A stretch of 64,000 bases of DNA, taken from Aneurinibacillus uraniidurans (GTDB taxonomy: Bacteria; Bacillota; Bacilli; Aneurinibacillales; Aneurinibacillaceae). The stretch lies in NCBI RefSeq assembly GCF_028471905.1, contig NZ_CP116902.1, forward strand, positions 1,462,501 to 1,526,500. The letters run 5' to 3'. Shown here one piece after another: positions 2,374-43,299 of the stretch (position 1 is the stretch's first letter; the number at the start of each line of letters is the position of its first letter). The translations under genes were made by a program, and so were the position numbers. The notes under the pieces are model-generated. The model was not told the origin of the DNA. It saw nothing but the letters and a program-made list of their open reading frames with translations, and did not search any database.

Positions 2374-3213
2374 ATGAAGGTGTCTGTTCTGCTTGACAAT
2401 AACACATTGATTGACCGCTATTTTTTTGGGGAGCCAGGGGTGTCATTTTACATAGAAGATAACGGAAAGAAAATTTTGTTTGATACGGGATACTCTGATG
2501 CTTTTGTACGAAATGCAGAGAAAATGTGCATTGACTTGCGCCAGCTTGATCATATTGTTTTATCACACGGACATGTCGATCACAGCTGGGGGCTGACGTA
2601 TCTGGCTCGAATGTATATGGAAGCCAAAATTGAGGATGTGCCGCATACACAGCCATCTATTATCGCCCATCCTGCTGTATGGGAAAGTAAAAAGTTTGGT
2701 GACATGGGGGAGATCGGAAGTTTATTTAGCGAGCAAAAGATTCAAATGCACTTTGCTACTCATACGTCTATAGAACCTGTTTGGTTGACTGAAAATTTGG
2801 TGTTTCTTGGTGAGATTCCAAGGCATTTTGAGTTTGAAGGAAAAGAAGTTATTGGAACCGTTAGTAGAAATGGAGAAGAGACCGATGATTTCGTAATCGA
2901 TGATACTGCCTTAGCGTACCGCTCACCTAACGGATTAGTGATTATAGTAGGTTGTGCTCATTCCGGAATTTGCAATATTGTCGAGTATGCAAAGCAGGTG
3001 TGTGGAGATGAGCGGATTATAGATATTATCGGGGGGTTCCACCTTCAGCATCCGTCCAAGGAACAAATGGAGCAGACTGTGGAATACATGAAAGGACTGC
3101 GCTTGCCTGTTATGCATCCGTGCCATTGTACAGACTTTTCGTCTAAAGTAGCACTGACTAGGGCAGCGTCTATTCAGGAAGTGGGGGTAGGGCTCCGGCT
3201 TCAATATGAGTAA
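2374..3213 (+). CDS. MBL-fold metallohydrolase, dihydropterin-synthase-like subfamily
   Basis: A 279-residue metallo-beta-lactamase-fold protein. The metal-binding motif is LSHGHVDHSWGL (HxHxDH) near residue 68. Later ligands are in VVGCAHSGICN and GGFHLQHP, and there is a C-terminal MHPCHCTD. The GCAHSG...GGFHL...PCHC pattern is that of the 7,8-dihydropterin-6-methyl-4-(beta-D-ribofuranosyl)aminobenzene-5'-phosphate synthase-like group found widely in bacteria and archaea. The true reaction in bacteria is unknown. GGGGG lies 8 nt before the ATG. It is monocistronic, ending in a terminator that is also the left edge of a repeat unit. Confidence 0.85.
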   Translation: MKVSVLLDNNTLIDRYFFGEPGVSFYIEDNGKKILFDTGYSDAFVRNAEKMCIDLRQLDHIVLSHGHVDHSWGLTYLARMYMEAKIEDVPHTQPSIIAHPAVWESKKFGDMGEIGSLFSEQKIQMHFATHTSIEPVWLTENLVFLGEIPRHFEFEGKEVIGTVSRNGEETDDFVIDDTALAYRSPNGLVIIVGCAHSGICNIVEYAKQVCGDERIIDIIGGFHLQHPSKEQMEQTVEYMKGLRLPVMHPCHCTDFSSKVALTRAASIQEVGVGLRLQYE

Positions 3214-3216
3214 ATG

Positions 3217-3270
3217 ACCGAGGTTGTCTCAAAAGCCAGAACGTGGTGGGTGGGACAGCCTCTTTTTTTG
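3217..3270 (+). terminator. Terminator at the left edge of a repeat unit
   Basis: GAGGTTGTCTCA (from 3220) pairs imperfectly with TGGGACAGCCTC (about 3251-3262), followed by seven T. The first 20 nt (3217-3236) recur as an exact reverse complement at 3929-3948. Confidence 0.75.
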
Positions 3271-3279
3271 TAGAATCGA

Positions 3280-3515
3280 CAACGTGTGGTGGGGAGGGAG
3301 TGGGAGAAGGAAGGAGCCGTTCGCTTCGGTACGCTGGCAGGGAAGTGGGGGCTGTCCGCTCCGGGAGCCCGACAAACTCGCCCGCAAAGAAAATCTATGA
3401 TGTTGATTCATAGAAGGATTGCGGGCAAAGGTCCGTTCGTTGTTCTCCCTCCGCTGAGTAGGCGCGTACAGGCGCTCTTGCTCCTCCCTTCTCCCACTCC
3501 CCGCACAACGTTTTG
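3280..3515 (+). repeat. Structured repeat copy A
   Basis: About 236 bp that folds end to end. Outer arms are GGAGTGGGAGAAGG-type purine-rich sequence (from 3297) against CCTTCTCCCACTCC (about 3486-3500). Next inward, GTACGC (3329-3334) pairs with GCGTAC (3464-3469). Then GCCCGCAA (3380-3387) pairs with TTGCGGGC (3419-3426), and the apical TCTATGA (3394-3400) pairs with TCATAGA (3408-3414). Conserved unpaired blocks include GGGAAGTGGGGGCTGTCCGC and AAAGGTCCGTTCGTTGTTCT. The family is not one I recognise. Confidence 0.75.
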
Positions 3516-3643
3516 TTTTACAAAAAACATGCGGCGCCAGAATGGATTTACTCGATAGACATTGGCTTTTTGAAAGCATGCTTTCTTTATTTTTTACCCG
3601 CATAGCAAAGCTTAGCATCTTAATATTGCTTGATGGTGTTTAA

Positions 3644-3876
3644 CCAAAGTGTGCTAGGAGTGGGATTGGGCGGGGAAGCGGAACGCCTGTACGCGACTTC
3701 CTAGCGGAAGGGGCCGGGCGAACGGGCCTTTGCCCACAATGCTTCGATGCATATACATCGCGGTCATCTTTTGTGGGCGAGTTCGTCTGGAACCTGAAGC
3801 GGGCAGTCCCCACTTCTCTGTAAGCGTACCTAAGTGACGAGGCCCCGCCCGATCCTGCTCCTCCACCACACATTGG
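3644..3876 (-). repeat. Structured repeat copy B (inverted)
   Basis: Reverse-oriented homologue of copy A with much-diverged outer arms that still pair: GGGCGGGG (3668-3675) with CCCCGCCC (3843-3850), and GGAT (3663-3666) with ATCC (3852-3855). GTACGC (3689-3694) pairs with GCGTAC (3824-3829). The inner stem is GCCCACAA (3732-3739) with TTGTGGGC (3771-3778), a compensatory change from copy A, and the apical hairpin is CGATG (3745-3749) with CATCG (3756-3760). Ends read CCAAAGTGTG and CACACATTGG. Confidence 0.75.
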
Positions 3877-3901
3877 AAAAAATCGCCCACCAAGAAAAGA
3901 A

Positions 3902-3947
3902 AGAGGCTGTCTCAGCCGCTATGCTACAGCTTTTGAGACAACCTCGG
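3902..3947 (-). terminator. Terminator of the minus-strand MBL gene
   Basis: On the minus strand, GAGGTTGTCTCA pairs with TGAGACAGCCTC, with one mismatch, and is followed by a T-rich tract (the A-rich run before 3902 on the plus strand). It shares its 20-nt outer part with the terminator at 3217. Confidence 0.75.
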
Positions 3948-3957
3948 TTATCGCCAA

Positions 3958-4698
3958 TCAATGGTCTTTGATAATAGCTCGGAGTTGATCTTTAATGTTC
4001 CCGGTACATACGCCCCCGTGATAGCAAATCACGGTTTCGATATCGAGCGGTAAGAATTTTTCGAGAGAGCGAAGAGCGGTATCCATATCAAGTGTAGTTC
4101 TTTGTACGGGTCCATGTAAGATGCCGTCCACACTAACCATAGCATCTCCGACAATAAGTGTTTTACTTTGCTTCAAATATAAACTAATATGACCGGGAGT
4201 ATGTCCGGGTGTAAACAGAACGAGAATTCCTCCGCAGTACGGAAGTTCTTGACCGTCCACCAATGTTTTGTCTACTTTCGCTGTCGGTGGATTTTCGCAT
4301 AATGCCAGCAATTTTTGGCGTTCGTTTTCGGGGAGGGAGGCTGCGACTTTAGCAATGCTGCTTGGGTTTGTTTTGATCAAGGGCAGTGTGCCTTCGATAT
4401 ATGGCTTGTCTAGTTCGTGGGCATATACTTCAATACGCCCATTGGACTCGTGCACGATGTCAGCAGTACTACCGATATGGTCAATATCCTGATGTGAGAG
4501 AATAATGGCTTTTACTTTGTCAAATGATACACCAGACTCAATCATGGCTGCGCGTAATTTTTCCATATCCCCAGGCATGCCTGTATCAATCAAGATGGCT
4601 GTTTCATCATCCCAAATGAGTGTGGGATTCAAGAACATACGACCGCCGAATCCCTCCGCTTGTAATTCGAGCATTTCTACTCCGTTCGCAATTCTCAT
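3958..4698 (-). CDS. MBL-fold metallohydrolase (glyoxalase II-like)
   Basis: A 246-residue metallo-beta-lactamase-fold hydrolase with the full ligand set: LSHQDIDHIGS (HxxDH variant of HxHxDH), FTPGHTPGHISLYL, and an aspartate in IVGDAMVS, with a late histidine in ICYHGG. The first HxH histidine is replaced by glutamine (SHQDIDH), a variant common in this YflN-like group. Activity is probably hydrolysis of a thioester, lactone or ester; the substrate is unknown. It is monocistronic, transcribed towards repeat unit 1. The start is supported by GGGGGAT a few bases upstream. Confidence 0.88.
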   Translation of the reverse strand: MRIANGVEMLELQAEGFGGRMFLNPTLIWDDETAILIDTGMPGDMEKLRAAMIESGVSFDKVKAIILSHQDIDHIGSTADIVHESNGRIEVYAHELDKPYIEGTLPLIKTNPSSIAKVAASLPENERQKLLALCENPPTAKVDKTLVDGQELPYCGGILVLFTPGHTPGHISLYLKQSKTLIVGDAMVSVDGILHGPVQRTTLDMDTALRSLEKFLPLDIETVICYHGGVCTGNIKDQLRAIIKDH

Positions 4699-4993: not shown

Positions 4994-5278
4994 TATTCAA
5001 AAAAACGTACCTGTTACAGGTGTATATAGAGCATTGAAAGGAATACAGTAGTGCCTGGAATTTTTGTCTCAGAGAGCTGATGGTCGGTGCGAATCAGTAC
5101 ATATCCAAGCATGAATTACACTCCCCGAGCTTCTTTTTCGTAGTAAAGATCTGGTCTTTATGAAGGGAAAGACGGCAATAAAGCCGTTATCAAAATAAGA
5201 GTGGTGAGCACTTGCTCGCAACTAGGGTGGTACCGCGATGTTTATTCGTCCCTACTGGTTTTCCAGTAGGGATTTTTT
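4994..5278 (+). promoter_or_regulatory. T-box riboswitch, probably tyrosine-specific
   Basis: Stem I carries the AGAGAGCTGATGGTCGGTG apical motif (about 5070-5090), a 5' AGTA and a 3' GAA of the loop-E type around the specifier loop, and Stem III AACGGC-type pairing near 5170-5190. The T-box sequence AGGGTGGTACCGCG is at 5224-5237, where TGGT would pair with the tRNA NCCA end. The terminator CCCTACTGG (5250-5258)/CCAGTAGGG (5263-5271) plus six T follows. In the specifier loop GAATTACAC, the codon after GAA-N is UAC (Tyr). Uncharged tRNA-Tyr would therefore stabilise the antiterminator and switch on phenylalanine hydroxylase, which makes tyrosine. Confidence 0.9.
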
Positions 5279-11567: not shown

Positions 11568-11615
11568 TTTGGATATGTTGTTGTATCGTATAACTCATAC
11601 AACTACATATAGTGC
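11568..11615 (+). promoter_or_regulatory. Two NrdR-box-like sites flanking a -10
   Basis: The site at 11600-11615 (CAACTACATATAGTGC) matches all the strongly conserved positions of the NrdR box (acaCwAtATaTwGtgt). A weaker match lies at 11568-11583, exactly 32 bp upstream, the usual three-turn spacing of tandem NrdR boxes. TATAAC (11589-11594) between them may be the -10. The regulator gene is not in the window; assignment is by pattern. Confidence 0.45.
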
Positions 11616-11910
11616 TTTGTGGTGTGCCTGTGAGAACGCTCCAGGTACTTAAAAGGGAAGTTCGGTGCAAGTCCGACACGGTCCCGCCACTGTAAAGGGG
11701 AGTATGCTTCTACGATGCCACTGTTTGAAAAAAATGGGAAGGCGAAGCATGCAATGAACCTGAGTCAGGAGACCTGCCGCAGAGTAAGACACAGGAAGTA
11801 GCCACGGGAGATGGTGAAGTGTCAGTGAAGAGTAGTTTTCAACATCATAAGGCTCTTTACTTTGACATGAACAAGCATCTTTCTTGGACGACGGGAAAGA
11901 TGCTTTTTTG
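11610..11910 (+). promoter_or_regulatory. Cobalamin (AdoCbl) riboswitch and terminator controlling nrdAB
   Basis: The conserved core runs from about 11615 to 11812 and includes GGTGTGCCTGTGAGAACGC, AAGGGAAGTTCGGTGCAAGTCC, CCCGCCACTGTAA, AACCTGAGTCAGGAGACCTGCC and GTAGCCACGGGAG. A downstream pair, TGTCAGTGAAGAG with CTCTTTACTTTGACA (11820-11867), may act as the alternative helix. It is followed by a true terminator, AAGCATCTTTC (11873-11883)/GAAAGATGCTT (11895-11905) plus T-run. Excess B12 would end transcription before the class I ribonucleotide reductase genes, as known for class I nrd operons in organisms that also have a B12-dependent class II enzyme. Confidence 0.92.
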
Positions 11911-29417: not shown

Positions 29418-29447
29418 AGTCCACCTGTTTGATGGGTGGGCTTTTTT
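29418..29447 (+). terminator. Terminator after thiolase
   Basis: AGTCCACC (29418-29425) pairs with GGTGGGCT (29435-29442, one G-T pair), followed by a T-run. Confidence 0.8.
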
Positions 29448-29459
29448 GCGATTCCAGAC

Positions 29460-29692
29460 TTTGGTGGTGGGAGGGGGAGAAGAGAGAATCTGTTCGCTTC
29501 GGTACGCTTTGCGGGGAAGTGTAGACTGTCCGCTCCAGGAGCCCAATGAACTCGCCTGCAAAGAAAAGCCCCACGACGTTTTTTTCATGAGAGGATTGCA
29601 GGCAAAGGCCCGTTCATTGTTCTCCTTCCGCTGAGGAGAAAGCGTACAGGCGCTTTCTTGCTTCTCTCTTCTCCTCCTCCACTACACGTTGG
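29460..29692 (+). repeat. Structured repeat copy C (single)
   Basis: Homologue of copies A, B and D in the 322-nt gap between thiolase and the FAH gene; no gene is seen in it. Outer arms GGGGGAGAAGAGAG and CTCTCTTCTCCTCC pair. GTACGC (29502-29507) pairs with GCGTAC (29642-29647). The inner stem is GCCTGCAA (29554-29561) with TTGCAGGC (29596-29603), again a compensatory variant. The right end ACTACACGTTGG resembles the ends of copy B. It lacks the second inverted copy and the spacer found in units 1 and 2. Confidence 0.75.
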
Positions 29693-42762: not shown

Positions 42763-42834
42763 CTGCGTTACAATAGTGGGCTGTCTCGGAAGCCAGAACA
42801 TGGCGGCGGGGCAGCTCTTTTTTTGTAATGTCGA

Positions 42835-43070
42835 CAACGTTTGGTGAGAGGGAGTTGGAGAAGAGAGGAGCCGTTCGCTTCGGTATGCTTGCAGGGAAGT
42901 GGGAACTGTCCGCTCCGAGAGCTCGACGAACTCGCCCGCAAAGAAAGGCATGTGATGTTGATTCATAGAAGGATTGCGGGCAAAGGCCCATTCGTCGTTC
43001 TCCCTCCGCTGAGTAGGCGCATACAGGCACTTGAGCTCCTCCCTTCTCCCACTCCCCGCACAACGTTTCG
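42835..43070 (+). repeat. Structured repeat copy D
   Basis: Closest to copy A. GTATGC (42883-42888) pairs with GCATAC (43019-43024), a two-sided change from the GTACGC/GCGTAC of A, B and C. The inner stem GCCCGCAA (42934-42941) pairs with TTGCGGGC (42974-42981). Outer arms GGAGTTGGAGAAGAGAGGAGC and GCTCCTCCCTTCTCCCACTCC pair with few mismatches. The apical hairpin of copy A is only half kept (TCATAGA present, partner altered). Confidence 0.75.
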
Positions 43071-43198
43071 TTTTACAAAAAACACGCGATGTCAGAATAG
43101 ATTTGCTCGATAGACACTGGCTTTTTGAAAACATGCTTCTTTTATTTTTTTACCTGCATAGCAAAGCTTAGCATCTTGATCTTGCTTGATGATGTTTA

Positions 43199-43299
43199 AC
43201 CAAAGCGTGCTAGGAGCGGGAGCGGACAGTCCCCACTTCTTCGTAAGCGTACCAAAGTGACGAGGCCCCGCCCGATCCCGCTCCTCCATTACACTTTGG
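43199..43299 (-). repeat. Truncated structured repeat copy E (inverted)
   Basis: Both ends match copy B (CCAAAGCGTGCTAGGAGCGGG and CTCCTCCATTACACTTTGG) and the 5' strand CCCCACTTCTTCGTAAGCGTACC is kept. About 130 bp are missing, including the whole inner hairpin and the 3' partner of the GTACGC helix. It is a clean internal deletion derivative, 101 bp long. Confidence 0.72.

Follow-up and report, generated by a model that had tools for sequence, protein, structure and literature searches.

The window is a stretch of 64,000 nucleotides from the chromosome of Aneurinibacillus uraniidurans (genome G000; NZ_CP116902.1, positions 1,462,501 to 1,526,500 of the forward strand). Between two convergent gene ends in it (2374-3213 on the plus strand and 3958-4698 on the minus strand) lie two copies of a repeat of about 235 bp that is dispersed in the genome; each copy is called an arm here. 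A sequence-only reading had described four like copies of one fold, A to D, in this window. When the sequence was re-read directly, their positions and fold stood, with one correction: B belongs to the minus strand, so that 3280-3876 is an inverted pair, A/B (Table 1). The left hairpin of the pair is absent from the list of our terminator scan, which admits loops of 3-8 only; the inner part of the right one (3917-3905) was found by it. The ends of the pair, 3214-3269 and 3896-3951 (56 nt), are 80% complementary.

Table 1. Arms and associated features in the window (R1, covariance model of the arm core; see text).
Feature	Position	Strand	Remarks
Left terminator-like hairpin GAGGTTGTCTC ... GGGACAGCCTC with T-run, 5' of arm A	3220..3269	+	by eye
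Arm A	3280..3515	+	R1 match 3319-3481, E 1.5e-38; fold z -5.66
Inner stem GCCCGCAA of arm A, 5' side	3380..3387	+	partner 3419-3426; helix covaries
Spacer between convergent arms A and B	3516..3643	n/a	
Arm B, inverted relative to A	3644..3876	-	R1 match 3677-3839 (minus), E 1.2e-39; fold z -4.57
Right terminator-like hairpin, T-run on minus strand, 5' of arm B	3893..3945	-	
Terminator-like hairpin with T-run before arm C	29420..29446	+	by eye
Arm C, single arm	29460..29692	+	pair at the same place in the sister species
Terminator-like hairpin with T-run before arm D	42778..42825	+	
Arm D, A-type	42835..43070	+	
Truncated B-type partner facing D (fifth arm)	43144..43299	-	R1 match 43144-43262, E 1.2e-4

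The helices are as the same reading gave them. The inner stem is GCCCGCAA/TTGCGGGC in A and D, GCCCACAA/TTGTGGGC in B (on its own strand) and GCCTGCAA/TTGCAGGC in C. The second helix is GTACGC/GCGTAC in A, B and C and GTATGC/GCATAC in D, and the outer arms of B are unlike those of A in sequence, with pairing retained. All four copies fold 4.6-5.7 SD better than their dinucleotide shuffles, and none of 200 shuffles did equally well. Two open reading frames, 129 and 90 aa long, run across arm A; a protein-coding repeat was rejected from the indels between copies. One promoter-like site was found in 3150-4000, outside the arms (0.4 expected).

Pair-keeping changes in the helices

The two-sided changes among the four copies had been taken as the mark of selection on a structured RNA or on a cruciform/transposition substrate, and we can ask: How does this stand in a larger set of arms? 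Compensatory double substitutions were counted against a tree-aware null that preserves the number and kind of changes on each branch. There were 28 of them in 51 A-type arms (null mean 3.9, maximum 9 in 60 nulls) and likewise 28 in 54 B-type arms (null mean 5.3, maximum 10), so that the two-sided changes are upheld statistically, as a pooled count, within each type separately. Single changes that break a pair were depleted (125 vs 200.6 expected in A-type, 130 vs 216.1 in B-type), and the terminal branches alone kept the compensatory excess (19 vs 4.4 and 19 vs 4.5, respectively). Pair-keeping doubles numbered 29 and 26 at the true pairs and 0-4 at slid pairs; with the structure borrowed from one copy of the other type they numbered 14 and 13, as against 0-5 and 1-8 at slid pairs. 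The double counts vary by run (28/28, 29/26, 27/25) because ties between ancestral states were broken at random.

Covariation was also evaluated pair by pair with our own R-scape-like, tree-aware procedure. Among 117 closely related copies from G000, the sister species (G005) and a further genome of the family (G006) no pair reached E<0.05, and the pooled count alone was significant. For 90 arms from many genera of Bacilli, in an alignment that was fitted to the model and thus favours the structure, 19 of 11,628 column pairs reached E<0.05; 16 of these are among the 30 model pairs and three lie beside model pairs, with no covarying column pair elsewhere. The 25 class-level arms, whose alignment was fitted to the model and favours the structure in the same way, had 199 double-changed cells, compared with 29-70 when the partners were slid. 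The fold is kept by selection through compensatory change, and the pooled double changes together with the 16 covarying pairs support a structured RNA or a cruciform/transposition substrate as its object.

One-sided changes on the strand of the sequence-only reading comprised 223 A.C and 135 G.U mismatches. Part of the A.C surplus is accounted for by a mutation bias: where columns are unpaired, G>A changes outnumber C>T changes. A sense-strand RNA has no support from the one-sided changes, and that strand is not favoured.

Distribution, gene ends and duplicated hairpins

The spread through Bacilli, the terminator setting and the hairpin duplication described below are additions to what had been read from the window. 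BLAST searches of the 3.85-Mb genome (a chromosome of 3,853,322 bp) gave 63 matches to copy A and 44 to copy B, pieces included. The covariance model R1, which covers a 164-position core and was built from 35 sequences, had 88 matches in the same genome and at least 150 in its congeneric sister species (scoring took in 150 candidates per genome). Among the other genomes of the family it had 6 matches in G006, 7 in G008, 9 weak ones in G007 and 2 in G003, and none in G001, G002, G004, G009 and G010. A survey of sampled Bacilli, in which at most nine candidates were scored per genome and the E-values are rough, detected R1 matches in 30 of 299 genomes and in 14 of 118 genera; 24 of the 30 genomes lie outside the family of A. 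uraniidurans, and 23 of these 24 supplied the class-level set of 60 loci. Restriction of the arms to Aneurinibacillus was overturned by this survey; an earlier search had given 36 stretches, 32 of them in Aneurinibacillus species, and the four elsewhere look like chance. Arm matches below 45-50 bits were left out of our counts, as were arms shorter than about 190-215 bp where full arms were required.

Neither copy A in plasmids nor one element of genus g28 in plasmids or phages had a match at DNA similarity, and plasmid or phage residence at that level was rejected after these searches. The window as a whole brought only a T-box leader (5025-5256) and a cobalamin riboswitch (11603-11795) to the gathering score of Rfam 15, both outside the arms. 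At 10 loci no arm reached a gathering score (the c-di-AMP riboswitch of L082 is not part of the arm), and 14 of the 60 class-level loci, like one other comparison with Rfam, gave weak matches only. A known Rfam RNA is rejected, as the arms tested fall below the gathering score of every Rfam 15 family; no description of the family was found in the open-access literature searched either, and the surmise that it is undescribed is in keeping with both results. The arms are a widespread structured mobile repeat family for which we found no described counterpart. A multicopy family of this kind, absent from Rfam and matched by R1 in 30 of 299 sampled Bacilli genomes, would represent a sizeable annotation gap.

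In the examined loci of G000 two adjoining arms always face each other, as A+ then B- or as B+ then A-, mostly at a spacing of 126-133 bp; single arms are also present. Most commonly in this genome, two convergent arms form a unit that is bounded on each side by a terminator-like hairpin. Convergent pairs recur in genus g28 (loci L289, L291, L292, L293 and L310; genomes G249, G275, G213 and G195). Over 28 pairs the mean identity was 87 and 86% for the two arms and 76% for the spacer. The unpaired motifs CTGTCCGCTCC and TCCGCTG are conserved, and the hairpin loop motif ACATCTGGGTA..GA.GGAGACA is common to the subfamilies, with similar loops read in L281, L282 and L299. In Aneurinibacillus sp. 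Ricciae_BoGa-3 (L119, L134, L135) the inner hairpin has an extra TTAGGGAATC...GATTCC before this loop motif. Locus L296 (G292) has two very similar arms, 401-563 and 627-789, that point the same way and form a tandem, not a convergent pair.

An arm pair can hold cargo. The D element of the sister species (L185, G005:C1:1955200-1958700, 645-2638) has TetR-like and MFS-like genes between its arms, both names being judged from the appearance of the sequence. As to terminal inverted repeats, five of ten elements have 11-13 of their first 18 letters in agreement with the inverted other end, a count made without a chance control; in the other five 3-7 of the 18 match, some ends being apparently shifted by a letter or two.

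In G000 a terminator-like hairpin with a T-run stands within 75 bp on the 5' side of 41 of 62 arms. In contiguous stretches such a hairpin was found 5' of 21 of 29 arms and 3' of none in G000, and 5' of 17 and 3' of three of 35 arms in the sister species; random segments contained one in 27 of 400 and 25 of 400 cases, respectively. Against terminator targeting count the general terminator scan of 3150-4000 (loops 3-8), with two sites vs 1.2 expected, and the class-level figures, with a hairpin 5' in 18 of 60 loci, 3' in 7 of 60 and in 85 of 600 random segments. Relative to a background of gene orientations taken from simple ORF calls, sites lay between convergent genes in 8 of 20 cases vs 103 of 499 (P 0.035) in G000 and in 10 of 23 vs 87 of 446 (P 0.006) in G005, and between divergent genes in 0 of 20 vs 119 of 499 and 1 of 23 vs 96 of 446. 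The enrichment between convergent genes is modest against the local background.

What stands at such places in genomes free of the element was judged by eye. At the place of D, the left gene in G004 and G006 is followed by a simple terminator-like hairpin, and the place of C in G004 has a terminator-like sequence too; a stretch of G002 showed no obvious terminator-like hairpin directly after the gene. In G007 the arms are enclosed by an outer stem, AAAAAAGGGAG/CTCCCTTTTTT, which itself looks terminator-like by eye. Related hairpins adjoin many A and B arms, and the end hairpins in G000 and G005 have a loop sequence in common across sites, so that in these genomes they seem to come with the element and not from the host. 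At three places in G000 a GGCTGTCYCAAAAGC-like hairpin was seen with no arm found within 8 kb (G000:C1:1539406, 1594027 and 1761207).

In genus g50 (G240, G204) nine of ten arms lie between two copies of a hairpin of 22-32 bp, with a spacing of 260-264 bp in all nine. These hairpins differ by locus, the two sides being identical at four loci and near-identical at five; the tenth arm, L287, is without duplication. Two further loci with a duplicated hairpin are L299 and L338. At an SW score of at least 34, a duplicated flanking hairpin was present at 11 of 60 class-level loci vs 1 of 672 mismatched controls; the 49 loci without one count against a duplicating insertion. In ten cases measured the hairpin occupies most of the duplicated segment. 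Duplicated length and hairpin span correlate with r 0.88 (n 10), a value that is inflated because the hairpin was measured inside the duplicated segment. The g50 duplication is taken as a putative target duplication spanning a terminator hairpin.

We compared 856.5 kb of G000 with 800 kb of G005, which are 88.6% identical in matching stretches. Twelve of 25 sites in G000 are occupied in both species (one by a 46-bp remnant in G005), five in G000 only, and eight were not bracketed; the 29 sites in G005 comprise 13 occupied in both (some by fragments), eight without an arm in G000 and eight not bracketed. The empty-site junctions at eight presence/absence sites are irregular, with a plain 8-bp duplication at one only, which counts against the mobile-element reading given below. 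Orthologous arms are 83-93% identical. In 13 comparisons with the best G005 paralog, the ortholog was the closer one only four times, equally close once and less close eight times, so that conversion or replacement between copies is likely to be common. One shared site has opposite orientations in the two species (A+/B- at G000:C1:1615304-1615868, B+/A- at G005:C1:2072304-2072808) and outer hairpins that look site-specific; this arrangement represents either an inversion between hairpins or two independent events.

Possible explanations for the arms

The family is MITE-like in anatomy: its copies are short, many, dispersed and, judging from indels, non-coding. Unusual are the fold and the hairpin duplication; the duplicated hairpins of g50, with 22-32 bp, have no fixed length. 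We consider it rather probable that the arms are a MITE-like element with a conserved multibranched fold, which has been carried into intrinsic terminators by a factor acting in trans, with duplication of the hairpin. A trans-acting enzyme would insert the element at the terminator hairpin, and insertion would duplicate this hairpin, whereby the neighbouring genes may keep their stop signal. The folded body, as single-stranded DNA or as RNA, would be recognised by the mobilising machinery, and the helices and the two unpaired motifs may be conserved because of this recognition. If the whole target terminator is duplicated, the arms would be an example of a mobile element spreading into gene ends while transcription stops stay intact. 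The terminal-branch compensation and the greater conservation of arms than of spacers suggest post-insertion selection or gene conversion; this is superfluous for a purely parasitic element and counts against it.

A further-reaching version, possible but in our view doubtful, is a hairpin-homing element in which the folded RNA or single-stranded DNA guides insertion into terminator hairpins regardless of their sequence and duplicates each one whole, leaving a working stop on both sides, so that a convergent pair would form a self-insulating, cargo-capable cassette. If true, it would provide a natural system for structure-guided rather than sequence-guided insertion. Whether convergent structured pairs insulate neighbouring genes also becomes testable.

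An alternative that we hold to be unlikely, though worth serious weighing, places the function in the host: the arms would be 3'-end elements kept for work in place, for instance as a read-through blocker, an insulator that separates convergent genes or a BIME-like topological site, and mobility would belong to their past spread. The enrichment of compensation on terminal branches, the depletion of pair-breaking changes and the conservation of arms above spacers in the 28 pairs would all be expected of it, as would the location at gene ends with a moderate preference for convergent gene gaps and the terminator-like outer stem around the G007 arms. However, G000 and G005, at 88.6% identity in matching stretches, are not occupied at all the same sites, and five of the ten other genomes of the family are without a match. 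The arms also lie downstream of terminators and are therefore probably little transcribed, and gene conversion, with orthologs closer in 4 of 13 cases and equal in one, could imitate selection in place.

It is quite improbable that the arms give rise to a structured RNA acting in trans or as a guide, for example the RNA of a hairpin-targeting ribonucleoprotein. Its RNA-like complexity, the conserved unpaired motifs, the loop motif common to the subfamilies and the covariation at 16 of 30 pairs would suit such a role, but the sole promoter-like site in 3150-4000 is outside the arms, G.U is not preferred over A.C on the strand of the sequence-only reading (135 vs 223), and no associated protein was seen. 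That these are ordinary palindromic or GC-rich repeats with an unselected fold, in which homogenisation among copies only resembles compensation, is very improbable: the rarity of orthologs closer than the best G005 paralog (4 of 13), which makes conversion likely, and the lack of an individually significant pair in the 117-copy set agree with it, but the null retains the number and kind of changes per branch, slid pairs yield fewer pair-keeping doubles, and 16 of 30 model pairs with three neighbours, and none elsewhere, are significant over many genera.

Search for a mover and comparison with known systems

If the arms are MITE-like elements moved in trans, which enzyme moves them? In the few families searched, no mobilising enzyme or autonomous partner with the same ends was found for the A/B or the g50 elements. 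Y1_Tnp occurs in 10 of 11 genomes of the family, once in G000 and twice in G005, and is unrelated to copy number. In genome G240 the ISNCY transposases fall into two groups, of seven and nine copies (L340, L344, L346-L359). Their copies are bounded by TGTTG..TGACA, and the target sequence that they duplicate, about 17 bp long, is not a hairpin; ISNCY/IS1202 was rejected as the mover, since these ends and duplications differ from those of the arms' elements. Target duplications made by IS1202/ISNCY elements are long and amount to 24-29 bp in one subgroup; the arms, with their putative target duplications, are alike in this respect and unlike the G240 copies in their terminal inverted repeats.

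In G006 and G008 single arms are enclosed by inverted ends, GTGCTTGAC .. GTCAAGCAC with variants, which by eye and at 3 mismatches of 24 resemble those of an ISL3-type IS of G000. This IS is found in L275 at about 1495-2990 (G000:C1 about 2565.9-2567.4 kb), with its transposase split in two frames. The carrier in G006 and G008 is, from its ends, probably an ISL3-type MITE. The likeness to ISL3-family MITEs is limited to these carriers; the A, B, C and g50 elements are without such ends.

Group IIC introns insert just after intrinsic terminators, and the arms resemble them in their putative insertion at terminators. They differ in being short, in having ends paired with each other and in the duplicated hairpin; we know of no hairpin duplication by group IIC introns. 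No Rfam intron match was obtained in the arms tested.

REP and BIME sequences are described as present in many intergenic copies, mostly 3' of genes and between convergent or unidirectional genes, and REPs of many families as lying close together in opposite orientation (PMC3733652). The many intergenic copies at gene ends and the oppositely oriented neighbours of our family are comparable with this description. In contrast, REPs are palindromes of 20-40 bp tagged by GTAG or CGTC and have an associated tyrosine transposase, while the arms are multibranched and of about 235 bp; a REP/RAYT system was rejected on this length and since Y1_Tnp does not track copy number.

The bcr repeats of the Bacillus cereus group are, as described in PMC6542083, dispersed, non-coding, taxon-limited and 100-400 bp long; bcr1 has a mean of 39 and up to 130 copies per strain and traits of a mobile element, and bcr mobility is linked there to TTTAT repeats (PMC6542083). 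The arms are like them, to the extent of that description, as dispersed, non-coding and taxon-limited repeats with mobile traits, and unlike them in their long multibranched fold, convergent pairs, terminator setting and hairpin duplication.
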